From Gammaproteobacteria bacterium (GTDB taxonomy: Bacteria > Pseudomonadota > Gammaproteobacteria > JABHGC01): a stretch of DNA of 64,000 nucleotides. The DNA lies in assembly GCA_027077805.1 (NCBI GenBank), contig JALWTS010000030.1, positions 1-64,000 of the forward strand, read 5' to 3'. The notes under the pieces were generated by a model. The model did no database searches, had not been told where the DNA came from, and worked only from the letters and a program-made list of their open reading frames with translations. Position numbers and translations under genes: made by a program. Positions 21,826 through 55,000 of the stretch are shown here, in pieces. Numbering within the stretch: the stretch's first letter is position 1; each line of letters starts with the position of its first letter.

Positions 21826-22584
21826 TTATTGCTCAATAATTCTTTGCAATTGTTGATTTAATAATTTCAATAATTCCGATTGCGAGGCATGCAGAAAAAA
21901 ATGATCCCCTGCAAAACTCACATGCGTAAATTCCGCCGTCGTTTGTTGTTGCCATGCTAAAATTTCTGCATCACTCGCATTCTCATCATTAATCCCTCCA
22001 ATGGCAGTCATTGGACAAGGTAAGGCGGATTCTTGTTGATATTGATAGGTTTCACAGGCCTGAAAATCCGCTCTTAAAGTTGGCATTAATAAGGCCATTA
22101 ATTCTTGATGCTCCAAGACTTCTTTTGGCGTGCCATTTAGGCGTTTCAGTTCTTGAATAAATTCTGCTTCAGGCAAATGATAAGTCGGCGGATCAGGATC
22201 CGGCACTTGAGGTGCTCGTCGCCCTGCCATAAACAAATGTTTTGGCAAAGGTTTTTGCCAACGCCGTAATTGACGAGCAATCTCAAAAGCTAAAATCGCC
22301 CCCATACTATGCCCAAAAAATACATAAGGTTTATTTAAATGCGGTAATAAGCCTTGTGCTAAACCTTGCACGGAATGGGATAAGGAAGTAAGTGCCGGCT
22401 CCATCATGCGAGTGCCGCGACCAGGTAATTGTGCAACCACTAACTCAACCGAATCTAACAAATGCTTTTTCCAAGGAATATAAACATGCCCACCGCCCCC
22501 GGCATAAGGAAAGCAAAATAAACGTAATTTAGCATGAGGTTTGGTTTCAGGATAAGAAAACCAAGTTTGTTTCACGGTCGGCAT
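21826..22584 (-). CDS. Type II thioesterase of the NRPS locus
   Basis: A 252-residue stand-alone alpha/beta hydrolase of the GrsT/SrfAD type. Such enzymes clear wrongly primed or stalled carrier domains of nonribosomal peptide synthetases. Seen: LFCFPYAGGGGHVY (oxyanion region, about 22-35), QLPGRGTR, the nucleophile Ser93 in FFGHSMGAILAF, a likely acid near GGINDENASD (about 197-205), and His228 in FAGDHFFLH. Length is typical. It starts 178 bases after the synthetase gene on the same strand, so it is probably the second gene of the same unit. That gap shows no gene or strong hairpin. It ends before the 32-bp palindromic terminator. Confidence 0.93.
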   Translation of the reverse strand: MPTVKQTWFSYPETKPHAKLRLFCFPYAGGGGHVYIPWKKHLLDSVELVVAQLPGRGTRMMEPALTSLSHSVQGLAQGLLPHLNKPYVFFGHSMGAILAFEIARQLRRWQKPLPKHLFMAGRRAPQVPDPDPPTYHLPEAEFIQELKRLNGTPKEVLEHQELMALLMPTLRADFQACETYQYQQESALPCPMTAIGGINDENASDAEILAWQQQTTAEFTHVSFAGDHFFLHASQSELLKLLNQQLQRIIEQ

Positions 22585-22762: not shown

Positions 22763-25700
22763 TTATTTGACCAAAATATACTGAGCCAAAATCGAAGCAT
22801 GTTTCGTATCTAACATCGTTTCATGATCCCCGGCAACATCATATTGCACCACCTCATCGCTAACATAAATTTGCCAACCAGATGTATGATCCACTTTCCG
22901 TTGTTTTTCCGCTTCATCTTCCGCTCGACATAAGGTAATAGACCCTTGGAAATGGGCACTTGGAATATAATTCCCTATGGCATAAATATTCGTTAAATAA
23001 ACTTTTAAAGTACGTTTCACTCGATCAAGATGTTGGGACTGTTGATTATCATCTAAAGATTTTGAAATGTGTTGCCATTGTTGTTCAATGCTTAAATTCC
23101 TCAAATCCTCATCTGTAATTAATAGATTTAATCCTGTTTGAGATTGAATATATTGCATTAATTCTCGACTCCATAATGAAGCCCCTTCCCAAACTTGCCC
23201 TTCGATATTTTCTCTTGCTCGTTGCGTAAAAATTGGGGAAGGACTATCTAATAAGATCAATCGAACCTCTTTCCCTTTCTGTTGCAGTTGCAAACCGATT
23301 TCAAACGCAATTAATCCCCCCATAGAATGCCCTGCGAGTTCATAAGCACCTTCGGGTTGTTGTTTGAGGATGGCTTCTAAATAATAACTTGCCATTGCTT
23401 CAATAGTGGTTAATGGCTGTTCCCCGGCACTTAAACCTAAGGCTTGCAAACCATAAAATACTCGATCTTTGCTTAAGGCTTTTGCCAATGGCAAAAATTG
23501 ATGAACATTCCCACCGACACCATGGACACAGAAAAAGTTTTGCTCACCGACGGAAGGCATTAACACTAATGGCAACTGTTTTTGTTCAGGCAAGGTTTCT
23601 GTGAGCAAATGAGCAAATGTTTCAATTGTAGGATATTGGAATAAATGTGTTAAGGGAAGTTCTCGTTCAAATTTTTGTTGAATTTGGCTTAAAAGCTGTA
23701 CGGCTAATAAAGAATGCCCCCCTATCGCAAAAAAATCATCATCAATGCTGATCTCAGTGACACCCAATAACGGTTGCCAAAGTGACAATAATTGTGCTTG
23801 TACCTCATTTTGAGGGGCAATAATCGTTTTATGGTACTGCTCTACTTTAGGCAATGCCATTTTATCCATTTTACCATTCGGGGTTAATGGCCATTCCCGT
23901 AATGGAATATAGTCATTAGGTAACATATAATTTGGCAAAAACTGCTGTAATTGCTGTTTAATTTGATGAATATCCCGTTCCAGTTCTACGTCTTTATCGA
24001 CAAGCAAATAGGCAACAAGTTTTTGTTGTTCGACACTGACTAAGGCATCTTTAATCATAGTCAGCCCCCGTAATCTTGCTTCAATTTCGCCTAATTCAAT
24101 TCTTAAGCCTCTTAATTTCACCTGATTATCCAAACGCCCCAGATATTCTAAGTGATCATTGGGTAAATAACGCACGAAATCCCCACTGAGATATAATCGC
24201 CCTTCCCCGAAAGGATTCTTAATAAAATATTGTTGTTGCAATTCAGGTTGACGAATATAACCATCACTGACACCCAAGCCCGCAATGGCTAATTCACCTA
24301 CCACACCTTTGGGTAATAAACGTTGCTGTTGATCTAAAACATACAAACGCACATTAGGGCAGGCTTGTCCAATCGGCACACGATGAGAATCGATAGTCGG
24401 ATCCATACGATAAAAACTAGCAACATCCGTACATTCCGTTGGACCATAAGTATTAATGACTTCGGCGTGTGATTGCTTTAACCAAGCCGTGATTTTCTCA
24501 GCAATAATCGCCTCCCCCCCTAAAAACAGGGTTTTTAAACTGGCTAATGCCTGAGGATAATCTAATAATGGATAAAACATGCTTGGCACACAATTTAAGC
24601 GTGTAATACCATAGTCTTTGATTTCATTGGCAATGACATCGGGTTGATACAGCTCAGTTGCCGATAAGACTAAGCTACCACCTGATAATAATGGTGCAAA
24701 TAAATTTTTCTGAGTCAGATCAAATCCAAAGGCGGATATTAACAAGGTCTTATCGTCCGCACCAAAATCAAAGTGGTTGATATACCAATGTAATAAATTA
24801 AGCACCCCTTGTTGTTTAACGGCAACGGCTTTCGGTTGACCCGTCGAACCCGAGGTATAGATTTGATAAACCCAATCCTCTAATTCGGCATGATGTTCTA
24901 AATTGGTTTCTTCCAATACAGCGACTTCCTCCCAATCCTGATCCAAACAAAATACATGACCTTGATAATGTGAAAACTGCGGTAAATACATTTGCTGGGT
25001 TAATAAAATCGGGGCCTTAGCATCTTCTAACATATAATCTAAACGCGATTGCGGATAATGAGTTTCTAAAGGCATATAGGCATGACCTAATTTGACCACC
25101 GCTAATACGGCAATCACCATTTCAATGCAACGATTTAAACAAATCGCAATGGCATCGGTTTTTTCAATATCAAAGGATTGTAAATAATGGGCTAATTGGT
25201 TGGCTTTATGATTTAAGTCTTGATAATCCATAGAAGTTTGCCCAAAAATCACCGCCGTTGCCATAGGGCTTGCTTCAACTTGATGCTCAAACCATTCTTG
25301 AATGGAATAAATATCAGGCAACACTTGATGATTTTGCTGTTGTTGTTGCAACATTTGTTGATGTTCAATTTCAGTCAACCATTGTAGTTCTTTGAGTTGA
25401 TGAACCCCATTGATCAATTGCTGACTTAAGGCTAATAATCGATCTAAAAAGCCACCCTCACTGAAATAAGCACTGTGATAATGTAATTGTAGATTGACAT
25501 CGGCACGCCCTGCCTGCACTAAAAAGTGGATTTGATCGGGTAATGGTCGAATCGAATATAAATCAATGTTTTCTTCTTGTTGTAAAAACAAAAGTTTGGA
25601 AGGAAAGCTATAAAAATTATAGAAAAAGCCTAATCGAGCTTTTTTAATTAACTGAGTTTGTAATGAGACTGAAATATGTCTATATTCGCCTAAGTCTCTA

Positions 25701-28069
25701 ATAAAAGAACGCACCGCCATCAAATAGTCATTAATATCCGTCTCTGCTTGCATTTTGTCCGCCGAAAAGATAACGGGAATTTGTTGATAATAACAACCAA
25801 TCGCAGAACGATGTTCTTTAAAACGACTGCTAACAATTTCATAAATCACAAAATCCGCCTCTGCTCGACAATAACATTGCAATAATAAACCATATAAGGC
25901 TTTAAAATAAATGGCAGGTGTTAAGCGATTTTTACGGCAATATTGACGAATGGCTTGCCAATGACTGCCTTCGATTGGCATCTCAACTTGTTTCTCATGG
26001 CCCTGCTCTGAAGAAGTGAATGCGGGTGTTGGAAAATCCAGTGATTCTACCGATTGCAAACCTTTTTGCCAAAATTGGTAACTGGCGGAGGTATCAAAAT
26101 GAATTCGATTATAATCAATATAATCCGCAAAATTTGCGTTTGGCAAGGTATAAACTTGTTGCTGTTTTAATGCCTCATAAATATTGCCCAGTTGTTCTAA
26201 AAATAACGTCCCTGATAAACCATCGGTAATAATATGATGCCCCCCTGAAATGGCCAAATAATATTGCTTAGACAATTTTACGAGTAAATGATGGAATAAG
26301 GGTTCTTGTGCTAATTGATAAGTCCGATAAACCCGTTGCTCAATTAATTGCTGAATTTCATCTTGAGTCGGTTGCCAATCGGTCCAATCCAAGATTTCTA
26401 ACTCAACGGGCATGGGTTTAAGTATGGCTTGATAGGCAATGTTTTCATAAGTATTATCGCCGGATACAATCCTAGAACGTAACACGGCTTGCTTATCAAC
26501 CAAGTATTGCAACGCTTGTTGCCATCGCTCTAAATCAATCGCTTGATGGATTTCAATCACATTGCCAATACAATGATGCCAATGTTCAGGATAAGCCATA
26601 CTACTGAGATAAATATCTTGTTGAGTATAAGTTAAAGGATAAACTGCTTGATATTGTTGTTCTGACAAACCTAAACGATAATATAATTCGTCTTGGCTAA
26701 GAAAACATAAACTGGAAAGATGGACATCGGCATTGACTAATGCTTGTTCTAATAAATTACGCCAGTGCTTTGCCATACGTTCAATGCTTGACATATAAAA
26801 CAAATCCGTATTATATTCAAAATTCACCACTAATTGATGCCCCACTTCCCATACGACTAAGCTAATATCATATTTAGCGGTACGGGTTTTATTTTCAAGA
26901 TATTCCATTTGCAAATCTATCCATTCTTGATTTTGCACAGGAATGTTTTGCAAAGCAAAGGCAACTTGTGCTAAGGGGGCATAGCTTAAGTGACGTTTTT
27001 TTACCACGGATTCTATGACTAATTCGGCGGCAATATCTTGATGAGCATAAGCCCCTAAGGCAACTTTTTTCACTTTTTGCAGTAACTCGGATAACAATGG
27101 ATTCCCTGCTAAATTCGTTCGCATCACTAAAGCATTAATAAAAAAGCCAATTAATGATTCGGTATAAGGATGATGACGTCCCGCAATAGGGGTACCCACG
27201 CAAATATCCGTTTGCCCTGAATAACGGGACAATAATAATTGCCATAAGGCCAACAACAACATATATAAGGTAATCCCCTGTTCATAGGCGAGCTGATTCA
27301 GTGCGTTGCTCTGTGCTACGGATAACTTTATTTGATAATTTGCCCCATGAAAGGTTTGCACCTCAGGTCTTGGTCTATCCGTCGGCAAAGCCAATAAATC
27401 CGGGGCATTGGCTAATTGTTGTTTCCAATAATTTAACTGTGTTTCCATACGTTCGCCTTGCAACCATTGTCGTTGCCAATACGCAAAATCAGTATATTGT
27501 ATGGGTAATTCCGCTAAATTCGCCTCACGTTCCGAAACGTGTGCTTGATAAAGTGCCCCTAATTCATTGACCAAAATATTCATTGACCAACCATCGGCAA
27601 TTAAGTGATGCATATTGATTAATAATACGCGATGGTCATTGGCTAAACGTAATAAACTGACCCGAATCAATAAATCTCGTTCCAGATTAAATGGACATAA
27701 GGCATCGGCTTTCATCAAGGCTTTCACTCGATTTTCTTGCTGTAAGGCTTCTAACCAATCGCTTAAATCCACAATAGGCAAATCCAAATTAAATTTTCTT
27801 AACAATTGTAATTTCGGCTGACCATTGTCTAATACGATTTTCGTTGCCAACACTTGATGACGTTTCACCAAACTATTCAGTGCGGATTTTAATGCCTCTT
27901 CATTTAAATCGCCTCTCAGCCGTAATGCTAATGGAATATTATAAACCGCATTATCAGGGGATAATTGCGTTAAAAACCATAACCGTTCTTGGGCATAAGA
28001 TAATACTAGGGGTTGTTCTTTTGATAAGGGAGTGATTAGCAATGGCGTTTGTTTGCCTTGGTAAGATTC
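22763..28069 (-). other. NRPS module 10 (C-C*-A-T-TE), substrate unassigned, release module
   Basis: C domain HHLIADG at 10520-10526, C* HHIITDG at 10977-10983, A core near 11439, carrier Ser11819, then a type I thioesterase from about 11870. The thioesterase has FFCVHGVGGNVHQF, Ser11948 in AGHSMGG, Asp in LILLDSPSP and His12115 in AGDHE. Specificity residues D-L-K-N-F-G-T-D-V-K are the same as in module 2, so positions 2 and 10 should carry the same residue. Confidence 0.8.
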
Positions 28070-31000
28070 CATTGCTTTGGCAAAATCTTTTAACCTTGGA
28101 AATTCAAATAATAACTGTAAGGGCAATGCGGTTTGCCACTGTTGTTGCAATCTTGAGATTAATTGTGTGGCTAATAAAGAATGACCACCGAGTTCAAAAA
28201 ATTGATCCTCACGACCAATGCGTTCTAGGCCTAATAATTGTTGCCATAGTTGCACCATTTGTAATTCTAATGGCGTTTGCGGTGCTTGATACTCATGTTC
28301 CGCATGATAATAATCAGGTTTCGGTAAGGCTTTACGATCAATTTTACCCTGATGCGTCAACGGCATCACATCCAACTGAATAAAATAGGAAGGCACCATA
28401 TATTCAGGCAAATGCTCGCGTGTATAGCGTCGTAATAAATTCACATCCATTACTTGTTGGGCATTAAACACCATATAAGCGACCAAGCGTTGATCCCCAA
28501 AACTATCTTCTCTCACTAAAACCACCGCCGTATTCACGCCAACACAACTGGATAACACCGATTCAATTTCACCTAATTCAATTCTAAAACCACGAATTTT
28601 GACTTGATGATCAATACGACCTAAATATTCTAAATCCCCCTTAGGTAAATAACGAGCTAAATCCCCGGAACGATAAAGTCGTTGGTTTTTTCTAAAAGGA
28701 TGGGCAATAAAACGTTGTTTTGTTAATTCGGGACGGTTGAGATAAGCTCTCGCTAAACCGGCACCACCAATACAAATTTCGCCCGCAACGCCAATAGGCA
28801 CTGGATTTTGGTAACGATCTAAAACATACATTTGCACATCAGGCAAGGCTTCCCCAATGAGACTCCCTTGATGTTCCATTAAATCTTTATAGCGAATAGT
28901 GCGATAGGTGACATGCACGGTCGTTTCAGTAATCCCATACATATTCACAAGTTGGGGTGATTCCTCCCCATATTTTTCAAGCCAAGGCGATAAACTGGCG
29001 AAATCTAAGGCTTCCCCACCAAAAATAATAAAACGCAAATTTAATTTTGCGATGATTTCATTATTATTTTGTTTATCTTGTTTGTTTTGTTTAGTCATGT
29101 CTGCTTGTTTATCCGCTCGAATCAGTTGATAAAAAGCGGAGGGCGTTTGATTTAAAATACTTACCTGCTGTTGTAATAATAATTGATAAAAATCATCGGG
29201 TGATCGTGTCATCATATAAGGGACAATGACTAAACGACCGCCATATAACAAAGCACCCCAAATTTCCCATACCGAAAAATCAAAGGCATAAGAATGAAAT
29301 AAGCTCCAAACATCGGTATGGTCAAACGCATATAATCCTTGCACACTTTCAAATAAACGCATGACATTATAATGACTGACTTCAACACCTTTAGGTTTCC
29401 CTGTCGAACCAGAGGTATAAATGACATAGGCCAAATGATTAGGAGTGACTTCCGTGCGTAAAGAACCCGTGTTATTTAAGGCAATCAACTCCCAATCCAT
29501 GTCAATACATAAGACACTTGCGTGAAAACTAGGCAAATGCTCTAATAATTTTTCTTGCGTTAATACCAAATCAACCTTGGCATCTTCTAACATAAAGGCT
29601 AAACGCTCTTGAGGATAACTTGGGTCTAAAGGTAAATAAGCCCCCCCTGCTTTTAATATCCCTAAAATGGCAATAATTAATTCAATGGAACGCTCCATAC
29701 ATAAACCAACCAAACTATCTGGCTTAATCCCAAATTTTTGTAACTGATTGGCTAATAATTCCGCTCGCAGATTTAATTCCATATAATTAATGCGTTGCTG
29801 ACCATACACTACCGCAGTTTTTGCACTATACTTATCCACTTGTTGCTCAAATACTTGATGCAAACAGTAGCGTCTTTGATAGCTTCTCACCTGATTCCAT
29901 TCCTCCACTAATTGCACCCATTCCGTTCTCAACAGCAAGGGTAATTGTGCCATCGCTTGTTGAGGTTGACTCACCATAGCTTCAAACAAGCGCAGCAAAT
30001 GTTTGATGAGATTTTCAATAAACCCTCGATCAAATAAATCGGTATGATATTCCACCCCCCCAACAATACCTTGCTCGGTTTCTCTTAACGCTAATAACAA
30101 ATCGAATTTTGCCGTATCACTCGGAATATCCATTGGATTGAAACTGAGTTCTGGCAATTTCATTGGGTCTATTGGTAAATTTTGTAAGCTCAACATGACC
30201 TGAAATAATGGATGATGATTCGTACTACGTTCGATTTCCAGATATTCTACCAATTTTTCAAATGGCAAATCTTGATGTTGATAGGCCTGTAATGTTGTGG
30301 TTTTTACTTGTTGCAAATAATCTAAGACATTTGGATTATGGCTAAGATCGCCTCGTAACACGAGGGTATTCACAAATAAACCCACTAATCCTTGCACTTC
30401 CTGACGAGAACGCCCCGCAATGGGAGAACCGACCGCAATATGGTCTAAGCCACTATAACGATGTAATAATATTTGAAAACCTGCCAGCAACAGCATATAA
30501 AGTGTCACTTCTTGTTCAAGTGCAAACTTTTGCAATTTTTGGCTTAAACTCAACGGAAATTGTACTGCCACAATATCACCACAATGACTCCACACAGCCG
30601 GACGTTTTTTAATCGCCAAATCCAATATCGGCAAATCCATCAATTGTTGTCGCCAATAAGATAATTGCTGATCCAAAATCTCACCTTGTAACCATTCACG
30701 TTGCCATACGGCATAATCCACATATTGAATGGCTAAGGGTGTTAATGGTGAAGGTTGTTGCTGACAAAATGCCTGATACAACACGGACATTTCTTTGACC
30801 AAAATCCCCATTGACCAACCATCGGCAATAATATGATGTAAATTACAATATAATACCGATTTTGTTTCGGATAATTGTATCAGTTGATAACGAAACAAAG
30901 GCAATTGGGTTAAATCAAAAATATGATTGGCTTCTTGTTCGAAACATTGTGCCATATCTAAATTTTGTTGTGCGGTGCTTTTATCACGCCAATCGAGTAC

Positions 31001-34000
31001 CGCTAAACTCGGCATTTGCTCTGGCGTATGGATTTTAATAATAGGCACCCCATTGACGACATCAATGGTAGAACGCAAACTTTCATGACGACGAATTAAT
31101 GCGTCGATTGCTTGCACCAATGCTTTTAATTGCAACTTGCCATTTAACTCTAGGGCAAACGGAATATTATAGCCTGCACTGTCGGGTTCTAACTGATTTA
31201 AAAACCACATCCGTTCTTGGGCATAAGATAATAATAAAATACGTTGCCGTTTGGTCCTCCCCATTTGCTGTTCTAATTGCCACTGTTGCTGTTGTTGTTG
31301 CTCAATAGTTTGGGCTAAATCCGCTAATACAGGTGTTGCAAAAACATCCATTAACGACAGTTGGGTTTCAAATTCGTCCACAATTCTTGCTATCAGTTGT
31401 GTGGCTAATAAGGAATGCCCCCCTAAACTGAAAAAATTATCATTAACCGCAATGCTATCTTGATCGAAAAGTTCACGCCAAATCCCTGCCAAACGTTTTT
31501 CTGTCAAAGAAACAGGGAATAAATTGGCCGCAACTTCCTCATCAGGCTCTGGCAAAGCTCGCCAATCGACTTTGCCATTCGGATTCAGCGGTAAGGATGC
31601 CACACGGATAATATGACTAGGCATCATATAATCAGGTAACTGCTGTTGTAATTGCGTTTTCAATACGTCAAGCTCAATGCCTCGCGATGAGTCAACGACA
31701 ATATAAGCCATTAATTTATTCTTATGAAATCGAACATAGCTATCATTGATTGCATCAAACTGAGTTAATACGGCGGAAATTTCATCTAATTCAATGCGAT
31801 AACCACGCCATTTTATTTGTCTATCCAAACGCCCTGCTAATTCAATTTCGCCATGCGTTAAATAACGACAGCGATCCCCCGTTTTATATAAGCGTTGTTT
31901 CATATCGGCGAGTTGCACTTCCACAAAACATTGCTGACTTAATTGTGGCTGATTTAAATACCCCGTGGCTAACCCCTCCCCTGCCAAATAAAGCTCGCCA
32001 TAAACCCCCATAGGGACTGGATTTTGATAAGAATCCAAAATATAACAATAGGTATTAGCAATAGGATAACCAATGGGAATATTAGTCGCCGTCGTATCGA
32101 CTTCGGTGATGGGATAGTAAGTAGAAAATGTCGTATTTTCTGTGGGTCCATAAGCATTTAACAAATGTTCCGGCGCTCCTTGGGCTAATAATTGCCTTAC
32201 CGCTTCAGGATCGCAGGCTTCCCCCCCAATTAAAAGATAACGTAAACTGGCAAATAAATCTGGTTTTTGTTGAATTAATTGATTAAATAGTGCCACGGTT
32301 ACAAACATGACCGTCATATTAGACTGTTGAATTACCTGAGCTAATAAATCGGCTTGCAATACCGTCTGTTTATCAATCGTAATAATCTGCCCACCATTTA
32401 ATAAAGCCCCCCAAATCTCAAATGTGACGGCATCAAACGCAGGGTTAGAAATATGCCCTATTTTATCTTGGGCATTCAGTTCAATATAATTCGTATTTAA
32501 TACCAAGCGACTCACGGCTTTATGAGGAATACAAACCCCTTTCGCTTGTCCCGTAGAGCCAGAGGTATAAATAACATAAGCCAAACTCTCCGATGTCGTA
32601 TAACAAGGTAAATTATCGCTTAACTCTTGCCAAATCGCATATTCTTTATCTAAACATAAGACACTGCTTTGCTCAAGTTTTGGCAAAGTTTTACTATGAC
32701 TCTCTAAAGTTAATACTGTGCTGACCTTCGCGTCTTGCAATATCAATTGCAAACGTTTGGGGGGGAAACTGGCTTCTAAAGGGAGATAAGCCCCCCCTGC
32801 TTTTAATACCGCCATCACTGCCACTAAAAACTCAGTGCAACGTTCCATGTGAATCGCAACAATGGCATTTGCTCCCCACCCCCCTTTATGTAAATACCGA
32901 GCCAGTTGATTCGCTTTATGATTTAATGCCGCATACGTTAAACGTTCATCGCCAAACTCAATGGCGATGGCATCGGGTTGCCAAGCGACTTGTTCTTCAA
33001 AAAGCTCATGAATGCCACGATCACAAGGATAATCCGATTGTGTCGGATTTAAGTCAATTAATAAGTGTTGTAAGGTCAGTTGATTAAATAAGGGTAATGT
33101 CGCCACCGTTAAATTTGGCTGTTGAGTCATGGCTTGTAATAAATAAATAAAATGCTCAATCACTTGCTCAATGGTCGTTCTCGTAAATAGATCGGTATTA
33201 TATTCCCATACCCCTTCAATATGAGAATCGACTTCTTGCAAAATCAATGACCAATCGAATTTAGCGGTTTGATAAGGCAAAGGCAATGATGAAAACTCTA
33301 ACCCTTCGAAACAAATTTTATCCATAGGCAAATTTTGCAAGGTAAATAACACTTGAAATAATGGCGTATGGCTGGGATCACGTTCTGGTTGTAAAACTTC
33401 GACTAATTTTTCAAACGGAATATCTTGATGAGCATAGGCATCTAAGGTGATTTGCCTCACTTGTTGAATGAGCTCAACAACCGTAGGATTATCTTTGAAA
33501 TTCGTTCGTAATACTAAGGTATTCACAAACAAGCCAATTAATTTTTCCCATTCCACATGATGCCGTCCAGCCACAGGTGAACCAACACTAATATCTAATT
33601 GCCCTGTATAACGATGCAATAGTATTTGAAATCCTGCTAATAATAGCATATACAATGTGACATCATATTGTCTTGCTAAGGCTTTCAACTCACTGACTAA
33701 CTCGGGTGCGAATGTTATCGCAATTCTGTCGCCACGATCCGTTTTTTGCGGGGGACGTGGATAATCCAAAGGCAAGGCTAATAACTCACATCCGTTTAAT
33801 TGTTGTTGCCAATAATCTAATTGGCGTTGCAAGGTTTTCCCCTGTAACCATTGTCGTTGCCAATACGCATAATCCACATATTGATAGGATAAATCGGCTA
33901 AAGGGGATAGCTTATTTTGTAAGAATCCTGCATATAATTGTGAAAGCTCTTGGGCAATAATTGCCATTGACCAACCGTCCGCAATTAAATGATGCAAAAT

Positions 34001-37000
34001 CACTAATAAAGCATACTCTTGTTCGGCAAATTGCAATAATTGAATGCGATACAAAGGCCCTTGCTGTAGATCAAAAGGCTGTTTTAATACCGCACTGACA
34101 AAAACATCTAATTGTTGTGCCTCAATATCTAAAATTGATAACTCAAAGCCCTTAAATGCTTGAATGGTTTGAAATGGCAAACCATCGATGGATTCAAAGG
34201 TCGTTCTTAAACTTTGGTGGCGACGAATTAATGCCACTAACGCTTGTTGCAATAGCCGAGTATTTAAGTTCCCTTTTATCCCTAATAAAATTGGAATATG
34301 ATAACTCACTTGATTCGGCTGATATTGCTCTAAAAACCACAACCGTTCTTGAGCAAAGGATAATACTAAGGCTTGATCCTTAGGGGCATGGGATAATACC
34401 ACCTCTTGACGTGGTTGCGGTTGTTGTAAAATCTGTTCTAATTGTAAGGCCAATCCTGCCACAGTCGGTGTCATAAAAAAGTAACGCAAGGGGAGTTCCA
34501 CCCCAAATTTTTGTTGAACTCGACTTATCACTTGACTGGCAAGTAAGGAATGCCCACCTAATTCAAAAAAGTCTTGGTTAATCCCAACAGCGGGCTGATC
34601 TAATACTTGTTGCCAAATCATACATAACACTTGTTCCATTGGGTTTCTTGCCACCTCAACCACGGCTTGAGAGACGATTTCCGGTTTTGGTAAGGCCTTA
34701 TAATCTAATTTGCCATTGATGGTGAGTGGAAATTGCTCCAACCACACAAATGCCGTAGGTAACATATAGTAAGGCAAATAAAGTTGTAATTGCTGACGTA
34801 ATTGCTGGGATGACAAACGTTGACCATGACCTTGCCCTCGTAAATACGCAATTAAATGCGATTGTTCCGCCACGACCACGGATTCCAATACGGGTTCTAA
34901 CTGATTAAGCCTTGCCGTAATTTCACCTATTTCGACCCGAAAGCCTCGGACTTGGATTTGATTATCAATACGTCCTAAATATTCCAAATCACCATTCGTT
35001 AAAAATCTTGCGACATCACCCGAACGATAAACCCTCCCTTTCCCTTTAAACGGGTGTTGAATAAAACGCTGTTTTGTCAATTCAGGTCGATTTAAATACC
35101 CTTTACTTACGCCAGCACCTGCGACATAAATTTCACCTGGAACCCCAATTGGCACGACTTGTTGATACGCATCTAAAAGATAAATTTGCAAATCAGGAAT
35201 GGCAACACCAATCACACTACCGACCTTATGTTCAATATCTTTTTGATAAATAGGACGATAACTGACATGTACCGTCGTTTCAGTAATACCATACATATTG
35301 ACTAGTTGTGGATATTGATCGCCATGACGTTGAATCCAAGGTTGTAATCGGGCAATATCCAACGCTTCCCCCCCTAAAATAACACAACGTAAGGCTAAAG
35401 TTTGACGATAATTTGCTCGTTGTTCGGCATGGATCAAACTATAAAATGCCGAAGGGGTTTGATTTAAAATAGTGACTTGATGTTTCACTAAAAGTTGATA
35501 AAACTCATCCGTTAATCTGGCGGTATCATGAGAAACAAGCACTAATTTGCCCCCATATAACAAAGCACCCCAAATTTCCCATACCGAAAAATCAAAGGCA
35601 TAAGAATGAAATAAGGTCCACACATCCGAATCACTAAATTCAAACCAATGTTGACAAGCACGGAATAATCGAATCACATTATAATGACTCACCTCTACCC
35701 CTTTCGGCTGTCCCGTCGAACCTGACGTATAAATAATATACGCCGATTGTTGGGGTAACATAGAGAGTGATAAATTATCCTCAGAACAGGCTTGCAATTC
35801 TGTTTGTAATTGATCTAAAAACCAATAACGCCCCCCTTCAGGCAAGGGCGGATTGAAACTTGAATCCGTGAGTAAACCATCAATGGCGGCATCTTGTTGA
35901 ATAAAGCTTAATCGTTCTTTCGGCGTATTTGGATCCAAAGGCAAATAACAAGCACCCGTTTTCAAAATCGCTAAAATCGCCACGATAAGGTCTAATCGAC
36001 GGGGCAAACATAAACCAACAATGCTATTAAACCCAATGCCTTGTTGTTGTAAATAATGGGCTAGGCGATTCGCTTGTTTATCAAGCTCATCATAACTAAG
36101 GGCATTATAATCATCCACAACCGCAATCGCTTGCGGGTTAAATAACGCCTGTTGTTCAAATAATTGAGGCAGGCATTGTTTGACAGGATACGCACTAAAT
36201 TGACTGGGCTGAGTTAATAATTTATATTCCACTGAATCCAGCAATGAGAGTTGCAACACAGCTTGTTCAGGTGATTGCATGAAACTTTCAATCAATTGCT
36301 TCCAGTGTTTTTGCATTAAATCAATGGTAGTCGGCTTAAATAAATTGGTATTATATTCAATACTATAAAACAATTGCTGTTCATATTCCACAAACGTTAT
36401 GCTCAAATCAAATTTAGCAGTCGTTGCCTCATAATCTAAAGGATTAATGGTAAGATTCACACTATGCAATACGGCGTCAGGGTTGTTTTGCAACACCAAC
36501 ATCACTTGAAATAAAGGGGTCATATTTTGTTGCCGTTGCGGTTGCAATAGCTCTACCAATTTTTCAAATGGCAAATCCTGATGCGCATAGGCATCTAATG
36601 CGATTTGTCTGACATTCGCCAAAAACTCTATGCCACTAGGATTATGCGCTAAATGACTGCGTAACACCAAGGTATTCACAAAACAACCGAATACGGATTC
36701 TAATTCCGTACGATTACGACCAGCAATCGGTGAACCAACGGTAATATCTGCTTGCCCAGAATAACGAGCCAATAGAATTTGCCAACTGGCTAATAACAAC
36801 ATATATAAAGTAATATCTTGTTTTTGACAAAAGAGTTGTAAGTTTTTCGTTTGAACCTCGGTGAAACGAAACCGCCTTCTTGCTCCTGTAAACGTTTGAA
36901 CTTTAGGACGCACAAAATCCGTTGGTAAAGATAACGGGCTTAAATCCGATAATTGTTCTAACCAGTAATCTAATTGTTGTTGTAATACCTCACCTTGCAA

Positions 37001-43000: not shown

Positions 43001-46000
43001 ATTCAGTTGACAACGTAAGGCCAAAGTATTCGCAAAAAATCCAATAATTTGTTCCGTCTCAATCGTATGCCGACCGGCTATCGGTGAGCCAATACAAAAA
43101 TCAGTTTGACCACTATATCGAGAGAGTAAGATGGCAAAGGCAGAGAGTAACACCATAAATAAAGTCGCATCCTGCTGTTTTGCTAATTGTTTTAAAGCAA
43201 GGGTCAAATCCAAGGGCAAACTTAAGGGGGAATGTGAGCCAAGATCACTGGGTTGTTTCGGACGTGGATAATCCGTCGCTAAACGTAAAATGGGAACATC
43301 TTTTAACTGAGTACGCCAATAACTCACTTGTTGTTCTAATACCTCACCTTGCAACCATTGACGTTGCCAATACGCATAATCGGCATATTGAATCGCTAAT
43401 TCCGCTAAAGGGGAAGGTAGGCTTTGATGATAAGCATGATATAACGTAAAGAGTTCTTGAATTAATAACTGAACGGACCAACCATCGGAAATAATATGAT
43501 GCATATTAAGCAATAAAATATGCTCTTGAACTTTAATTTTTAATAATCTCGCCCGAAACAAAGGCCCATGTTCTAAATCAAAAATCCAATGGGCTTCTTT
43601 TTCTAAGACCTGCTGAATTTTACTGCCCCCCCAATTCGCCGCATCTTCAACCGCTAGTTGCAATACTTCTGCTTGTTGAATGTGTTGAATGGGTTGATAA
43701 TTCACGGTAGGGAAATGGGTACGCAATGATTCATGGCGTTTGACCACTTCTGAAAAACTTTGCTGTAAAGCGGATTCATCTAAGGGGCCAATAAACCTAA
43801 CAGCAGAACATATATTATAAGCCGCACTATAAGGTTGTAATTGATCCAGAAACCACAAGCGTTCTTGCGCAAAGGATAGGGGTAATAATTTTTGGCGTCG
43901 CACAGGGACGAGTGGCACAGGGCAATTCACGCCTTTTTGTTCTGACTCAATTTGTGCCGCTAAATCAAGCAATTTTGGCGTTTCAAATAATCGACGTAAT
44001 GGCAATTCAATATCAAATTGTTGTTGAATTCGAGTCATTAGCTGGGTTGCTAATAAAGAATGCCCTCCTAAATCAAAGAAATTGTCGTCCCGCCCTACCT
44101 GAGGAATGGCTAAGACCCCTTGCCATAAATCAGCCAGTTGTTTTTCAACCTCTGTTTGAGGTTGAATAATTGGTTGTTGTTCTTGTTGTTGCGGTTTCGG
44201 TAAGGCATTGCGATCTAATTTACCGTTGGCAGTTAAGGGCATGGCATTTAATAGTACAATGGCCGAAGGCAACATATAATCAGGCAAATGTTGTTGGCAT
44301 AACTGTCGTAACTCATGAATTTCAACTCGCCCAACCACATAAGCAACTAAACGCTGATCACCGGGTGTATCTTCTCTAACAATGACAACGGTTTCCTTTA
44401 CCGCGGGATTTTGTTGTAATACCTGAGCGATTTCCCCTAATTCAATCCGAAACCCTCGGATTTTTACTTGCGGATCAGAACGCCCTAAATATTCAATTTC
44501 GCCTTGTTCTAAATAGCGTGCTAAATCACCGGAACGGTACAAGCGTTGCCCCTCAACAAATGGATGAGGAATAAAACTTTGCTCAGTTAATTCGGGTTGA
44601 TTTAAATAGCCCCTCGCTAAACCTTGCCCTGCCACACAAATTTCGCCAATCACCCCAGGGGGGAGTAAACCTTGTTCGGCATCTAAGATATATAATTGCA
44701 AATCAGGCAACGGTTCACCAATCACACTACCTACCCCCAAACGTAAATCTGAAGATTGAATGGGACGATAAGTGACATGAACAGTGGTTTCAGTAATACC
44801 ATACATATTCACCAACTGTGGATGATCACTGGCATAATGCTGATACCAAGGTTTTAAGGTTTGAAAATCTAAGGCTTCCCCTCCCAAAATAACTAAACGC
44901 AACTGCGCTAAGGTTTGAGCTTGTTGAGGAAGTTGCTCAATCAACGGATAAAAAGCCGAAGGGGTTTGGTTTAATACCGTGATTTGCTGTTGTAATAACA
45001 ACTGATAAAAGTCCTGCGGTGAACGTGATACCGTATAAGGGACAATCACCAATTCGCCCCCATATAATAAGGCTCCCCAGAGTTCCCATACTGAAAAATC
45101 AAAACCATAGGAATGAAATAAGGTCCATTTATCGGTATGATCAAAGGCAAACCAACCCTCACTACCCGCAAACAATCGTAAGACATTATGATGCGCTACC
45201 ATGACCCCTTTCGGTTGCCCCGTTGAACCAGAGGTATAAATGACATAACATAAATTATCAGGAATGACCTCACTGTCAATGGTAACAGAATTATTCACCC
45301 GAATGCTGAACCAATCCGTATCTAAACAAACCAGTTGATAGTCGTTACTCTCGGGTAAATTTTGTAATAAACTTTGTTGGCTAATCACAACTTTTGCCTT
45401 AGAATCCTCTAACATAAAAGCGAAACGTTGCTCAGGGTATTTTGGATCCAAAGGTAAATAGGCCGCACCTGATTTTAATACGGCAAATAATGCCATCACT
45501 AACTCGGGAGAACGTGGCAAGCAAACGGCGACTAAATCATCGGGTTTCACCCCTAATTTTTGCAAATGATTGCCTAATAAAGAGGCGTTTTGTTCTAACT
45601 CTGAATAAGACCAAGTTTCATCCTCATAACGTAATGCCACCGCATCAGGCGTGCGATCTGCCCAAGTTTCAACAATATGGTGAATACAATAATCCGAAGG
45701 ATAACTACGAACCGTATTCCAATCCGATAACAAACATTCTTGCTCGGCTGGCATAATAATCGTCAGATCGGAAAAGATTTCAGCCCCATCAATGACTTGT
45801 TTGGCTACCTGCTGTAAACGCTGTAGAAACTTAAAATCGGTAAAATACGCCAAATGGTAATGCAAATTCAAACGGAGTTTATTATCAATTTGTTCGACAA
45901 TAAATTGAATTTGATGCTCAGGAAATGGAACACTAATTTGTAATTCGGCGACCTTATCTAAAATTGGAATGGAATCGGCAAAATTGTAAAAATTATAATA

Positions 46001-49000
46001 AAAATACTGTTTTGCCGAGGGCAATAACTGCCGTTGTAAAAAAACCGAAATAAATTGTTGCTGACCAATGGTTTTGATATAGGCTTTGACTTGTTCAAAA
46101 TAGTATTTTAAGGAACAATGTGATTGCATAGTCTCAATATCAAAAATTATCGGTAATTGCTGATAATAACAACCTAATGCCTGTAAATGTTGTTTTTTCC
46201 TCCCGCCTAAAATTTCTAATATCACAAAATCCGCTTGATGTTGGCAATAGACTTTTAACACTAAGGCATATAAGGCTTTAAAAAATAACGATGGGGTTAA
46301 TTTATTACGGCGACAATAATGTTTGATGCCATGCCATAACTCATTGTCTAAGGTCAGTTGTTTATGCACAAATTGATTTTTTCTTGGCAATGCGGGCCTA
46401 AAATCTAACATCTCAATACTAGACAACTTTTGTTGCCAATACTGTTTAATCTCAAGGGTATCAAACCGAAAACGGGTGCTTTGTACATAATCGTCAAATA
46501 CCATTGGTAATGGCGTATAATCACGTTGTTCGATTAATGCCGAATACACATCACATACCTTATTTAAATAAACAGCGGCACCAATACCATCTAATAGCAT
46601 ATGATGGAAACTAGAAATCATTAAAAACTTTTCAGAATGAATTTTTATTAATTGATTATATAATAAAGCATCATGAGCAAGATTAAATTTCCAATGAATT
46701 TGTTGTTGTACTTTCTGTTGTATTTGCTCATAACGATAGGATTGATGCGACCAATCATGATATTCAAATTCCAAACAGGCAATTTTATCAATCACTTGAT
46801 ACACAGGGTCTAAATACGCTTGCTCACAACTCACCATCCGTGTTCTCAATACGGCTTGCTCTTCATAGACCAAACGCAGTGCTTCTTGCCAAATATCTGG
46901 CTGAATTTCCAAAGGAATATCTAAAATATACGCAAAGGTATTAAATCGAGTATCGGGATTCATTTGCGAATCAATATAAAGATCACGTTGTGCCGTCGTT
47001 AAAGGTAAGACTTGTTCCACCGCTTCTCGATGCAAACCCAAAATTTGGTAAAATTCATTGGCTTTTAACAAATCAAGTTGAATGACTGCTTTATCTGAAT
47101 ACTCAATGGCTTGTTGTAATAAGGTTTGATACTGTCTCGCCATGCCTTCAATCGTTGCAGGTAAAAATAAATCCGTGTTATATTCGATCAACGCAAGCAG
47201 CTGTTCCCCTTCTTCCCATAAAAACAAGCTCAAGTCATATTTCGCAATGCCAAAGTCATTATCAAACGGTTGCCAACTTAACTCGGCTAATTTTTGCTGA
47301 CGAAAGTTTTGTAAATTTTGTAAGGCAAAGCCAACCTGAAATAAAGGGGAATAACTGGCATTACGCTGGGGTGATAATTTATCGACTAACTGTTCAAATG
47401 GAATATCTTGATGTTGATAAGCCTGTAACACCGTTTGTTTGAGTTGACTTAGAATTTGTTTAAAACGGTGTTGTGGCGAATAATGATGACGTAACACTAA
47501 AATATTAACAAACAAACCGATCATAGACTCAACATCAACATGATGCCGACCCGCAATAGGACTCCCCGTGACAATATCTTGCTGTCCAGAATAACGAGAT
47601 AATAACAACTGCCAAACCGATAATAATAACATAAACAACGTGACATCTTGTTGATACGCAAATCGGTGAGCGGATTTTGATAATGGCGTGGATAAGGCAA
47701 AGTGATAGTGTTTACCATGATGGCTTTGAACAGGCGGACGTGGAAAATCCAGCGGTAAATTTAATAATTCAGGGGCATTTTTCAACTGTTGTTGCCAGTA
47801 ATCAAGTTGTGCTTGTAATTGCTCAGATTTCAACCAATGACGTTGCCATACGGCATAGTCATAATATTGTAATTTTAGTGCGTCTAACGTCAAAACTTCT
47901 TTATAATACAAAGCATTATAAATTTTAGCTAATTCTTTAACAAATAAGCCAATTGACCAACCATCGGCAATACTATGATGAAAATTCACCAGTAAAATAA
48001 AACATTGATTCGATAATTGTAATACCATCGTTCGATATAAGGTTTCGTCTGCTAAGGAAAAACCACGTTGAGAAAATTGTTGGCTGATTTCTCTGGCTTG
48101 TGCTAATGATTCTACGGTTAAGACAGGCAAAGATGGCCATTCAAATGGCATAATTTTCGCTCTGGCTTCTCCCTGAAACGTAATAAAACGAGTTCTTAGA
48201 ACCTGATGACGTTTCACAATTTCAGCCAAGGCTTGCTGTAATAAGGCAATATCCAAACTGCCTTCCACCTTAATAGCACTAGGAAGATTATATAAAGGAT
48301 TTTCAGGGGATAACTGATCTAAAAACCATAAACGCTCTTGTGCAAATGATAATGGCCAATCCTCGCTATCACTTGCAAATGCCGATGGAATGGGCGGATA
48401 ACGTTTATGATTCTCTTGAACTTGCTCTGATTCGATAATTTCGGCTAACTCAGCAATACATCGATGTTGAAATAATAAGGTAATGGGCAATTCCAAACAA
48501 AACCGTTGTTGTAATTTTGCCCTTAACTGCATTAATAATAGCGAATGCCCTCCCAATGCAAAAAAATCATCATAAATTCCAATTTTATCAACCGCAAGTA
48601 ACTGCCCCCAAAGTTCCACCAATAATTCCTCAGTTGGCGTGCGAGCGGCAACAAATTGTTGATCGGATTGAAATAAATTACTCTCTGGCAATGGTAATGC
48701 CGATTTATCTATTTTTCCATTGGGTAATTGTGGCAATTCGCTTAATACTTGAAAAATATTAGGCAACATATACTCCGGCAATGACTGTTGCAACCAAGTT
48801 CTCACCGCTTTAATATCAAGGAATGCTTGGTTTTCCGTGCTTAAATAGGCCACTAAACGAGGTTGTTGATCCTGATCTTGTCGCAATATGACAACGGCCT
48901 GCTGAATATCAGGATAGCTTAATAAATTCGCTTCAATTTCACCCAACTCAATACGATACCCCCTCAGTTTGACTTGATTATCCACTCGTCCCAAATATTC

Positions 49001-52000
49001 TAATTGCCCATTGCTCAAATAACGAACCCTATCGCCCGTTCGGTATAATTTATCAACATTTAAATGCTCAGACTTTACTTGGATAAAGGCTTGTTCCGTT
49101 TGTTTTGGCTGATGCCAATACCCCTCAGCCAAGCCAAAACCCGCAAGATATAACTCCCCCACCACCCCTATGGGTAAGAATTGTTGCCAAGGGTCTAACA
49201 CATAGCTTTGCATATTATCAATCGCCGTTCCAATGGCAACGCTTTGTCCTTCTGAGATAATCTGATGACAAATGGCATATGTTGCATCAATGGTCGCTTC
49301 TGTCGGCCCATAAAGATTGACCAAGGTTAAATTCGATTGGCGTGTCGAATGGGATTTTAAAGTGAATACCTGCTCAGCTAAGGCTTTGCTCAATACTTCC
49401 CCACCCACAAATAAATAACGCAATAAACTTAAGTTTTGAGACTTGGAATGCCTTAGCAATAACTGTAACAAGGTAGGAACAACTTGTAATACCGTAATCT
49501 TCTGTGCGTTAATAGTGGTTAATAAATAGTCTAAGTCTTGATGAGCATTAGCTTTGGCTAAAACCAAACTGGCCCCTTGTAATAAAGGGGCATAAAACTC
49601 CCATACCGAGGCATCAAAACTTATGGGGGTTTTTTGTAAGACTTTGTCATTTGAGTCCAAACGAAACGTTTGACTCATCCATTGCATATGATTCACAAGG
49701 GCTTGATGGTTAATCATAACACCTTTAGGCCGACCCGTCGAACCCGAGGTATAAATCATATATGCCATACTCTCTTTGCAAGCAACACTAATTAAGTTAT
49801 CTTGATTTTGATGAGCAATTTTTTCTTCAACCCTATCCAAACAAATCGGATACTCAATGCTTATATCCAATTTTTGGTCTAATTCGCTTGTCGTAATCAG
49901 AATTTTAGATAAACTATCTTGTATCATTAATTGCAAACGTTCTTTAGGATAGCTAGGGTCTAAGGGCAAATAAGCCCCACCCGCTTTTAAAATTGCGAAT
50001 AAAGTGATGATCATATCGAAACAAGGGAATAAACAAACCCCTACCACAATATTCGCACTTACCCCTAAAATTCGTAAATAACTGGCTAATTGATTGGCTT
50101 TAATATTAAGCTGTTGATAACTTAATTGTTGCTGTTGGTATTCGACCGCAATGGCATCGGGTGTTTGTGTTACCTGACATTCAAACCATTCCGACAAGGT
50201 ATGAAATCGTAATTTGCTCGTAGTTGATTGCCCCCAAGTTAACAGCGTTTGAATGTCTTGTGAAGATAACATGGGTAATTGAATGGCTTTATGTTTTAAA
50301 TGCCTTGGTAAGGCTTGTAACAAATTTTGGTAATGGCTTGCCAAACGCTGTATGGTCACCAAACTAAAACAATCCACATTATATTCAAAACAAGCCACTA
50401 TCCCTTGCGCTTGTTCCCATAGACTTAAACTCAGATCAAATTTGGCAGTGCTTGAACGGGGCTGCCACGGTGTTACCGTGAAATCGGGCGTATGTAAATC
50501 CAAAGATTGTAAATTTTGCCAAGCAAAAAATACTTGAAATAAAGGGGAATAGTCCAAATGACGTTCAGGCTTTAATAATGCCACTAATTTCTCAAAAGGC
50601 AAATCCTGATGTTGATAAGCTTGTAAAGCCATTGACTTGGTGGCTTGTAAAAATGCTTCCGTTGTTACCTCTGTATTAAGCTGAGAACGCATCACCAAGG
50701 TATTCACAAATAAACCTAACAATGGTTCCAGTTCCGTATGTTGTCGTCCTGCAATGGGACTACCGACAGCAAAGTCATGTTGCCCACTATAACGGGCTAA
50801 TAACAAATGAAAACCGGCTAATAACACCATATATAATGTCATGTCTTGCTGCTGACAAAATGTTTTTAAACTTGCGGTAAAATCACTGGAAAAGTGGATC
50901 ATATAACTATCGCCGACGCCTCGCCATTGTTTCGGTCTAATATAATCTAAAGGCAAATTTAAATCGGGTAAGTTTTGTAGTTGTTTTTGCCAATAATCGA
51001 CTTGTGGTGATAATTTATCTTGTGGCAACCATTGACGTTGCCATAAGACATAATCTTTGTATTGTAGGCTTAACGCTGGGACGGGCTGTGCTTGATATAA
51101 GGCAAGTAATTCTTGTGCCAATTTTTGAATAGACCAACCATCGGCAATAATATGATGGAAATTAAATAATACCACCCAAGATTTTGCCGTTAATTGATAA
51201 CTGCTTATTCGGAATAAAGGGGGTTGCCATAAATGAAATGCTTGTTGTTGCTGTTGTTCAATATATTGATCTAAGGCTTCCTCACTATCCGTTTCATGAG
51301 TGAGATCCATTTGTTCAATGCTTACTTCTAATTGTTCCCAAATATCTAAGTACGCACGCCCCTGAACTTCAACAATAGCCGTTCTTAAAATTTGATGTCG
51401 CTGTATCACTTGATTGACACAAGATTGCAATTTCATGACATCGAAATTACCCTGAATTTTCACCCCACCGATAATATGATAAGCGGTATTTGCCTGATTT
51501 AATTGTTGTAAAAACCAAATTCGCTCTTGTGCATAAGATAAAGGTAATTGTTCGGATTGTTGACTGGCTTGCAAAGGAGGTAAAACGAGAAAACGATTGC
51601 CTTGCTGTGTCATTAATTTTGACGCAAATTGCTCTAATATGGGATACTCAAATATGACAGATAAGGAAATTTCTAAACCTAACTGTTGCCGAATCTTTGC
51701 CACTAATTGTGTGGCTAATAAAGAATGTCCCCCCAAGGCAAAAAAATCAGAATTTGCCCCACATTCTACGCCTAATAAATCGGACCATTGTTGGGCTAAA
51801 ATATGCTCCATCTCATTACGAGGTGAAATTAACCCCTCCGGTTCGGTTGGCATTGGCAAGGCTTTTTTATCCAGCTTACCATTAGGCATTAATGGCCATT
51901 GCTGTAAATGAATAAATAGTTGGGGTAGCATAAATTCCGGTAATTGACGTTTGGCAATGGCTCGTAGCTCCTCGACATCTACCGCTTGTTCGGCCAAATA

Positions 52001-55000
52001 ATAAGCGACTAATTGCTGATTTTGAATTAATACAACAACATCGAATACCGCAGGTAATTGTTGCAATGCGGTAATAATTTCGCCTGCTTCAATACGCAAG
52101 CCCCTGAGTTTCAGTTGTTGATCAAAACGACCACAATATTCGAGTTGACCATTGGCAAGATACCGAGCCAAATCCCCTGTTTTATACCAAATTCCCTCAC
52201 CAAATCCTGCTTCAATAAAACGTTGTTTCGTCAACGCCGTTTGATTCCAATAACCCGCACTGACTGCCATTCCCGAAACCACTAACTCACCAATCACACC
52301 AACAGGCGATAAACCTAATTCCTTGTTGACAACATATAAATTAACATTAGGAATGGCGTTTCCAATAGGTATTGCTTGTGCGAGGAATTGCTCCGGCTGT
52401 TCTACTCGATAAAAGCTCACGACATCAGTGGTTTCAGTCGGTCCATAGGTATTGACTAACTGACATTGACACAACGATGATTGCAACCAATCGAATAATT
52501 GATTAATATTTATCGCCTCACCGCCTAAGAATAAATAACGTAAACTTTGTAAAGAGGCGAAATCCTGACCTTGAGAGACCAATGGATAAAAGGCAGTAGG
52601 CGCACAATTCAGTAAAGTAATTTTAGATTGTTGTAAACAACTTAAGATTTTTTGCACCTCATAATGAGGACTATCCGGGAATACAAGGCAACCGCCTTGC
52701 AACAAAGTAGCAAATAAATTTTTCTGAGTTAAATCAAAACTTAATGAACTGATAATTAAGCAATTATCCTTGGCGTTAATCTCAAATTCATTGATATACC
52801 ATGTTAATAAATTGACAAATGAGTGATAATAAACCACTACTGCTTTCGGCTGTCCTGTTGAACCTGAGGTATAAATCATAGAGATTTTATCTTGGCTCTC
52901 TAAATCAAGTTCCACCGCATTATCGGGATTATCACTGGATTGCTCTGAGGCTTGATCGCCATCCATTAATACCAATGGAATTGATTTATCAATTTTTTCT
53001 AATAATTCCAACCATACAAACTGAGTACAGATCACCGCTAAATCGGCATCATTTAACATTAATTGTAAGCGTGCCACTGGATAACTGGGATCGAAAGGCA
53101 CATAAACGCCACCCACTTTCACTACGGCTAACACCGCTATTACCCATTCAATACTAGGCGATAAACATAATCCAACTCTTTGATTTTTAACCACGCCTAA
53201 TTGCTTAAAATAATGGGCAAATTGATTCACTTTCTGATTAAGCTCGGCATAAGTATAGCGACGCTTGCCATCCACTACCGCAAGATGATGTGGTAATTGT
53301 TTCACTTGTTGTTCAAATCGTTGTTGAATATTTAAGTTTAAGGCTTGGCTTTTTAATACGGGCTGTAATATTTGTGTTTCATTGGCAAGTAAATAATCCA
53401 GTTCCGCTAACCATTGCACTTCATTTAAAATTTGATCCGAAATGGAAACCAGCCTTGTGAGTAAATCAAGTTCCGTAAAATAATCACTATGATAATGCAG
53501 ATTTAACTGCAACTGCCCTTGTTGCTGCTTAATAATAAAGTGGACTTGAGATTCTGGAAAGTGCAAATAATAATCAATCGTCAGCACTTGTTGATCAACC
53601 ACCACGTCATCAAAATGATAATAATTATAAAAAAACACAGGTTGCCCTAATTGAATTAACTGGTATTGCTTAAATACTGACAACATTTGCATGGCTTTCA
53701 CATGTTTTTGTTGGTCTTTCACACTGAGAAAATAATCCGCAATACTACGGGTATAACTCATTTGTTGTTGACGAAAAATCATGGGGACTTGCTGATAATA
53801 ACAACCTAAGGCTTTTAAATGTTGTTTCACTCTCCCCGACACAATGTCAAATACGATAAAATCTTGTTGTGATTGTGCTTGGGTATATAAATTAATTAAC
53901 CAGGCATATAAGGCTTTAAAATAAATAGCAGGCGTAATTTTTAATTGACGACAGTATTGACGTATTTGACGGAATTGATGATTATCAAGCCGTAATTGGG
54001 CATGTTGAAATTGCGAAGTCCCCGCTTTCACGGGCATAAAATTGAGTGCTTCAATTTCAGCCAAATCTTTTTTCCAAAAATCAATGACATCCTCACTATC
54101 AAATTGATGTCGGCTTTTTGCCACAAAATCAAAAAACAAGGGGGCCGGTGTTTGAATGATGTCCCCTGTTTCTAGGGCATGATAAATATTCAATAATTGT
54201 TGAAAATACTGATGCCCCCCCATGCCATCTAATAAAATATGATGGCTTGCTAATATCACCGTATAATGCTGTTCATTATGTTTAATTAAAATATTGTGGT
54301 AAAGCTCACCATAAATATCATAGGGGGCATCAATAAAGGCCTGCAATTCAGAGGGTGATAATGTCGCTTGTTCTAAATAAGTCAACTTAGGTTGATATTG
54401 AGCACGAATTGCCTGATAAGCCATTTCTAAATAAGGCTGAGTTCTGGCAATAATTTTCGCTCTTAATAAGGGTTGCTGTTCGACTAAAATACTTAATGCT
54501 TTGTGCCAACGTTGTTTATCAATGGCTTTGTTTATCTCGAAGACAAAACTTAAATGATTATTTAAACTCTCTGGAGATAATAACTGATCTAAATATAAAT
54601 CTCGTTGCGTCGCGGATAATGGATAAATCGCCTCATAATCCTTCGCATCTAAACCCAAGGCGGAATACAATTTTGGCGTGGAGAGTAAACTTAATTCATT
54701 AATCACCGCATTCGGTGATTGAATTAATTGTTGCAATAACGCTTGATATTGTTCAATCATTGCCCACATGGTTTGGGCTTGAAATAAATGAGTATTATAT
54801 TGCAACACTCCTTTTAAGCCTTGATTTTGTTGAATAAAACTTAAAGTTACCTCATATTTAGCCGTTTGATTATCAACACGAAACGATTCTAACTTAAGCT
54901 CAGCTAATTTCATTGCGACGGTTGGATCGTCTTGCAAGCTAAAACCAACCTGTACTAAGGGTGCGATTGCTAAATTTTGATGGTCATCGACCAGATGTTC

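Follow-up and report, generated by a model that had tools for sequence, protein, structure and literature searches.

A separate clade of condensation domains, inserted before the adenylation domains of gammaproteobacterial synthetases, accompanies nucleophilic side chains and may acylate them

What does a second condensation (C) domain do in a module that already contains one? The question is raised by a giant nonribosomal peptide synthetase (NRPS) encoded in a 64,000-nucleotide stretch of a Gammaproteobacteria bacterium genome (contig JALWTS010000030.1, assembly GCA_027077805.1; this whole stretch is the window). A profile scan with models made from the protein's own domains revealed ten standard C domains, ten adenylation (A) domains and three additional C-like domains, here called C*, each lying between the C and A domains of its module. 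We found that C* domains recur in other assembly lines, form a single clade, keep the catalytic residues and fold of C domains, and accompany A domains predicted to select residues with a nucleophilic side chain. We propose that C* is a catalytically active, separate class that acylates the side-chain hydroxyl or amine of the carrier-bound residue on the assembly line, a reading from sequence to which we give a probability of about 0.48.

The original prediction had reported an extra domain in modules 2, 4 and 10. Its presence was confirmed both by the profile scan and by Pfam, which assigns each C* to PF00668 (Condensation) with E-values of 2.6e-21 to 6.7e-36; the predicted coordinates agree with ours to within about 100 nt, and the motifs described (PL(S/T)xxQxD, HHxxxDG, TPxxxFKALY, GCYYQQxPxIF, and YNYY/YNFY) are present. 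Each C* starts 5-6 residues past an ordinary C domain and ends at the A domain. The three are 35-39% identical to one another and, as had been noted, unlike the ten standard C domains, with which their mean identity is ~17%. The synthetase and the three modules are laid out as follows (T, carrier domain; aa, amino acids).

22763..59167, minus strand: NRPS open reading frame (ORF), 12,134 aa, with ten modules and a terminal thioesterase (TE; GHSMGG); modules 2, 4 and 10 are C-C*-A-T
54689..55957, minus strand: module 2 ordinary C domain (HHIIADA), immediately preceding C*
53300..54673, minus strand: module 2 C* (HHILLDG), aa 1499-1956
51848..53299, minus strand: module 2 A domain, code DLKNFGTDV (homoserine type; the code family is named Hse in PMC12283262 and PMC7524897)
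47072..48343, minus strand: module 4 ordinary C domain (HHSIADG)
45701..47056, minus strand: module 4 C* (HHMLLDG), aa 4038-4489
44192..45679, minus strand: module 4 A domain, code DFWNIGMVH (threonine)
26705..27994, minus strand: module 10 ordinary C domain (HHLIADG)
25322..26689, minus strand: module 10 C* (HHIITDG), aa 10827-11282
23843..25297, minus strand: module 10 A domain, code DLKNFGTDV (homoserine type)

C* domains occur well beyond this protein. The source genome (2.55 Mb) has eight, spread across four NRPS genes, and the loci gathered hold 56 non-redundant C* domains, a recurrence far above chance. Besides the source genome, C* is carried by metagenome-assembled genomes (MAGs) of Methylococcales and other Gammaproteobacteria, by a Ketobacter bin and several Pseudomonadales, and by gamma proteobacterium HdN1, whose genome is complete. 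In the lines gathered, every complete C* has a C domain before it and an A domain after it. C* is nevertheless rare: it was found in 3 of 369 sampled gammaproteobacterial genomes and, among 399 genomes from the phylum, in the source genome only. Both frequencies are lower bounds, because very complete genomes are over-represented in the second sample and the large scans scored few candidates per genome. A FAAL-initiated lipopeptide line of about 14 modules (G093:C13 32561-93135), ~7 of them with homoserine codes and ~5 with C*, is common to Ketobacter, HdN1 and Pseudomonadales MAGs, with orthologues in G094, G095 and G096 (HdN1).

The catalytic motif is strongly conserved. Both the second (catalytic) histidine and the aspartate of HHxxxDG are present in 56 of 56 C* domains and the glycine in 53, while the first histidine is replaced by asparagine or serine in nine. 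Despite pairwise identities of ~30%, Q23, D199, S337, and N355 are also invariant. LCL, DCL, and starter domains have Trp-Ser after HHxxxDG; C* has lost it and carries conserved blocks of its own (TPxxYFKaLY, GCYYQQ, ISxxxQxQLL, and FxYNyy). An AlphaFold2 model of the module 4 C*, computed from 22 C* sequences, is a complete two-lobed C fold (pLDDT 91.4) that matches solved C domains of TycB, SrfA-C, and PvdL with a TM score of about 0.8, and a model of the C-C* didomain confirms two C folds (pLDDT 87, pTM 0.79). C* thus has both marks of the condensation superfamily, a PF00668 match with the full C fold and an HHxxxDG motif, and is apparently conserved as an enzyme.

To place C* among the known subtypes, we built a maximum-likelihood tree (LG+C20) of 75 rows, 28 of them C*. 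The 28 C* domains form a single clade (support 100/100), apart from LCL, DCL, epimerisation (E), cyclisation (Cy), lipo-starter, EntF-type, and interface domains. Its stem matches those of E, Cy, and interface domains in length; the tree does not settle which group is its sister. By sequence, C* is a separate class inside the known condensation superfamily, in a comparison that has X domains, C domains for modified amino acids (modified-AA), and the icosalide internal starter outside it. The original prediction, which had turned on where C* falls in such a tree, stands for the groups included. C* is not an E domain, as it lies outside the E clade and before A rather than after T. Nor is it an elongation domain of LCL or DCL type, since it has its own clade, always adjoins an ordinary C domain, and is never the sole C domain of a module. 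The C domain that precedes each C* is an ordinary LCL in our trees, and the FAAL-linked starter C domains group with LCL, not with C*.

The closest solved structures by profile are C domains of the E-C units of PvdL and bacitracin synthetase 3 (5e-37 and 3e-36), which are DCL-type by position. They share the fold of C* but follow E and are the sole C domain of their module, whereas C* has motifs of its own (DG without WS, TPxxYFKaLY, GCYYQQ, YNYY). A fragment of McyB (PDB 8hlk), which bears on the modified-AA C domains, matches the C* profile only at 6e-31. The suggestion that C* is closest to EntF-type C domains was rejected: mean identity is 17%, the EntF C domain is a long branch outside the C* clade, and DCL-type domains are nearest by profile. 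NCBIfam assigned no subtype to C*, and in a tblastn search of 72,556 plasmid records the six best non-C* matches that we checked all fell with LCL, starter, or DCL domains, and their addition left the placement of C* as it was. The open-licence literature yielded no relevant description of tandem C domains, C-C-A-T modules, or homoserine with tandem C domains; a description elsewhere is possible.

We determined which residues C* modules are predicted to load by reading the nine specificity residues of every A domain from an alignment to the PheA core; all codes are therefore predictions. Most A domains after C* have DLKN-type codes, making homoserine (Hse) the commonest predicted substrate; the others are DFWNIGMVH, DVWH(L/F)SL(I/V)D, DIWEMTADD, and a single DVFSLALIH. 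We take DIWEMTADD to be a code for diaminobutyrate (Dab). It occurs in four clusters, and the three whose neighbours were listed each carry a class-III aminotransferase that resembles diaminobutyrate aminotransferases at its N-terminus. PMC12283262 and PMC7524897 assign codes of the form DLKN(V/L/F)G(S/T)D to homoserine, and the first of these also gives DFWNIGMVH for Thr and DVWH codes for Ser.

Quantitation over modules from whole clusters revealed Hse, Thr, Ser, or Dab codes in 44 of 45 C* modules, compared to 25 of 89 modules lacking C* (Fisher p = 2.7e-16). When orthologous clusters were collapsed, the counts were 30/31 and 16/66 (p = 2.4e-12). On the tree holding the 28 C* domains the A code changes at least seven times, and every state has a side-chain nucleophile except one unassigned code. 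Thus, shared descent does not explain the association. The sole possible exception to the nucleophile rule is the DVFSLALIH module (G097:C5, with C* at aa 628 of ORF 50531-79999).

A mechanism consistent with these data begins with the A domain, which would charge T with Hse, Thr, Ser, or Dab. The ordinary C domain that comes first in the module would link the upstream peptide to the alpha-amine; since it is an LCL, the alpha-amide needs no help from C*. With the help of the histidine in the C* HHxxxDG motif, the same residue, bound to T, would then attack an acyl thioester through its side-chain hydroxyl (or, in Dab, through the gamma-amine), leaving an O-acyl ester or a gamma-amide branch. 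Because no dedicated donor gene is adjacent, the acyl group would probably be supplied in trans, as acyl-CoA or acyl-ACP. We infer the reaction, the order and timing of its steps, and the donor. An active role such as a second, side-chain acylation had been suggested at the outset; it is the best fit, given that nearly every C* module has an Hse, Thr, Ser, or Dab code, while the reaction itself stands as a proposal. Slightly more tentative, and short of even odds, is the broader claim that C* founds a new functional class acylating side chains and that lines with three to six C* domains make peptides with multiple acyl branches or tails, which present mining rules would overlook.

Several points weigh against side-chain acylation. 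At the C* loci we found neither an acyl donor gene nor an extra carrier domain. A nucleophilic side chain by itself does not call for C*, since several modules for Hse, Thr, and Ser have none. In sequence, C* is closer to DCL-type domains than to the starters that use acyl-CoA, and five or six side-chain acylations per product would be unusual. The A codes are predicted only, with the Dab assignment provisional and DVFSLALIH lacking one, and the C* lines have no known product.

Heterocyclisation, internal initiation of the icosalide type, and docking are each less likely than side-chain acylation. In the first, which we consider unlikely, the ordinary C domain would form the amide and C* would then act by cyclodehydration, joining the side chain to the carbonyl of the amide just made and giving an oxazoline from Ser or Thr, a dihydro-1,3-oxazine from Hse, or a tetrahydropyrimidine from Dab. 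A similar division of labour is reported between Cy1 and Cy2 of the vibriobactin synthetase VibF, which has tandem Cy domains before the A domain of a Thr module. Cyclodehydration accounts for the restriction to nucleophilic side chains, and it fits the position before A and the absence of donor or tailoring genes. However, C* has HHxxxDG, with His and Asp in 56/56, and an ordinary LCL partner, unlike the Cy domains of VibF, which have DxxxxD. C* also lies far from the six Cy domains of the source genome, which form another clade. Cysteine, the easiest substrate, is never paired with C*, as all six Cys modules use Cy, and the commonest substrate, Hse, would give a six-membered ring. Six Cys-code modules are consecutive in a 10,882-aa NRPS of the source genome (G000 contig C15:123571-156219, L029-L030), and their DxxxxD cyclisation domains suggest that its product contains a run of six thiazolines or thiazoles.

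A little less probable still is internal initiation, in which C* would attach a hydroxy-fatty acid to the nitrogen of the module's amino acid, and the C domain upstream would join the peptide to the hydroxyl of that fatty acid. The precedent is module 3 of the icosalide synthetase (C-Cstart-A-T), the only C-C-A(Ser)-T module we found in the open-licence literature whose function has experimental support (PMC8949500). Like C*, its extra active C-superfamily domain lies between C and A, in a Ser module of a lipopeptide line, and C* lines resemble lipopeptide lines in having a starter-like C domain or a FAAL start. The icosalide domain is, however, a starter, whereas C* falls outside the clade that holds starter C domains (in a tree that does not contain the icosalide sequence itself) and is found mainly with Hse. 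The upstream C domain is an ordinary LCL. N-acylation also leaves the near-exclusive presence of hydroxyl- or amine-bearing residues unexplained, and a line with as many as six such insertions would be extreme.

We also considered whether C* offers a docking site to an enzyme that works in trans, in the manner of interface domains in beta-hydroxylation or the X domain of glycopeptide synthetases, and regard this as improbable. The interface domain of siderophore beta-hydroxylation, reportedly described by Reitz et al. in 2019 (cited in PMC12230676), is likewise a non-canonical condensation-superfamily domain directly before A, and the single TauD-family gene of the source genome at first made this identity for C* look strong. 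We recovered reference interface domains by gene context from G370 and from plasmids of Variovorax, Eleftheria, Janthinobacterium, and Azospirillum. At these loci a TauD domain closes the upstream NRPS, and the protein after it opens with a C-like domain that precedes an Asp A domain. Unlike C*, which has HHxxxDG and precedes Hse, Thr, Ser, or Dab A domains, the recovered interface domains lack HHxxxDG; the two groups are distinct clades (100/100 each, with the same split in a quick tree). In G370 (C1 987192-997748, aa 1116-1448 and 2193-2527), two near-identical modules with code DVWNMGLIH lie in a siderophore-like cluster, and their C domains sit on a long branch next to the DCL group.

Partner enzymes for docking were likewise lacking. 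Among the neighbouring genes inspected, no hydroxylase, P450, or glycosyltransferase adjoins the C*-rich loci, no TauD lies beside C* loci, and no P450 or Cupin_8 was found in the source genome. Its sole TauD gene (L021:1294-2169, G000 contig C31) is on another contig, away from all NRPS genes; it adjoins small genes that by eye resemble sulfur-relay genes and is probably unrelated to the NRPSs. X-domain identity was rejected as well, on architecture, motif and gene content rather than by tree: X lies between T and TE, has a degenerate site, and works with P450 partners, whereas C* has an intact motif between C and A in a genome that showed no P450. The original prediction had listed X- or interface-type docking as an option; the intact motif with its invariant catalytic residues, the separate position in the tree, and the lack of partner enzymes argue against it.

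Dehydration of Thr to dehydrobutyrine and Ser to dehydroalanine is very improbable, as beta-elimination is not open to Hse, the main substrate, or to Dab, even though Thr and Ser are among the predicted substrates and PMC7524897 cites dehydration by modified-AA C domains, with the C domain of the next module proposed to act in microcystin and nodularin synthesis, whereas C* adjoins an ordinary C domain in the same module.

Genome-mining tools count each C-superfamily domain as one peptide bond, or as E, Cy, X, or interface. If C* is a distinct catalytic class that tracks one property of the A substrate, it would extend the NRPS code by a tailoring reaction and alter the structures predicted for a set of gammaproteobacterial lipopeptides. 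Side-chain acylation of an NRPS product is known from FR900359, where, according to PMC8949500, a thioesterase carries it out, not a condensation domain as we propose for C*. The role of the second C domain is reduced to a one-residue question at the histidine.

The remaining NRPS features of the window are these.

57812..59077, minus strand: module 1 C domain, which clusters with FAAL-linked starter C domains at 95/86 support and less clearly in the quick tree
22766..23590, minus strand: terminal thioesterase region (GHSMGG), boundary approximate
21826..22584, minus strand: stand-alone type II thioesterase (PF00975), the sole accessory NRPS gene within the window

Because of this clustering, the module 1 C domain is probably lipo-initiating. 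Apart from the type II thioesterase, the genes around the NRPS in the window are housekeeping genes. The source genome encodes six giant NRPS genes (contigs C30, C34, C42, C15, and C4 of G000) totalling about 51,800 aa, roughly 6% of its 2.55 Mb. Each is a single ORF amid housekeeping genes, almost without accessory genes; the flanks inspected around the other NRPS genes contain housekeeping or polysaccharide genes. In Ketobacter-type clusters the accompanying genes encode an aminotransferase, MFS and RND pumps, a type II thioesterase, and a GGDEF protein, together with a free-standing C-like protein that falls outside C* in the tree. This 397-aa condensation-superfamily protein (L088:10069-11262), conserved beside the cluster with equivalents in G094 and G096, is possibly an acyltransferase.

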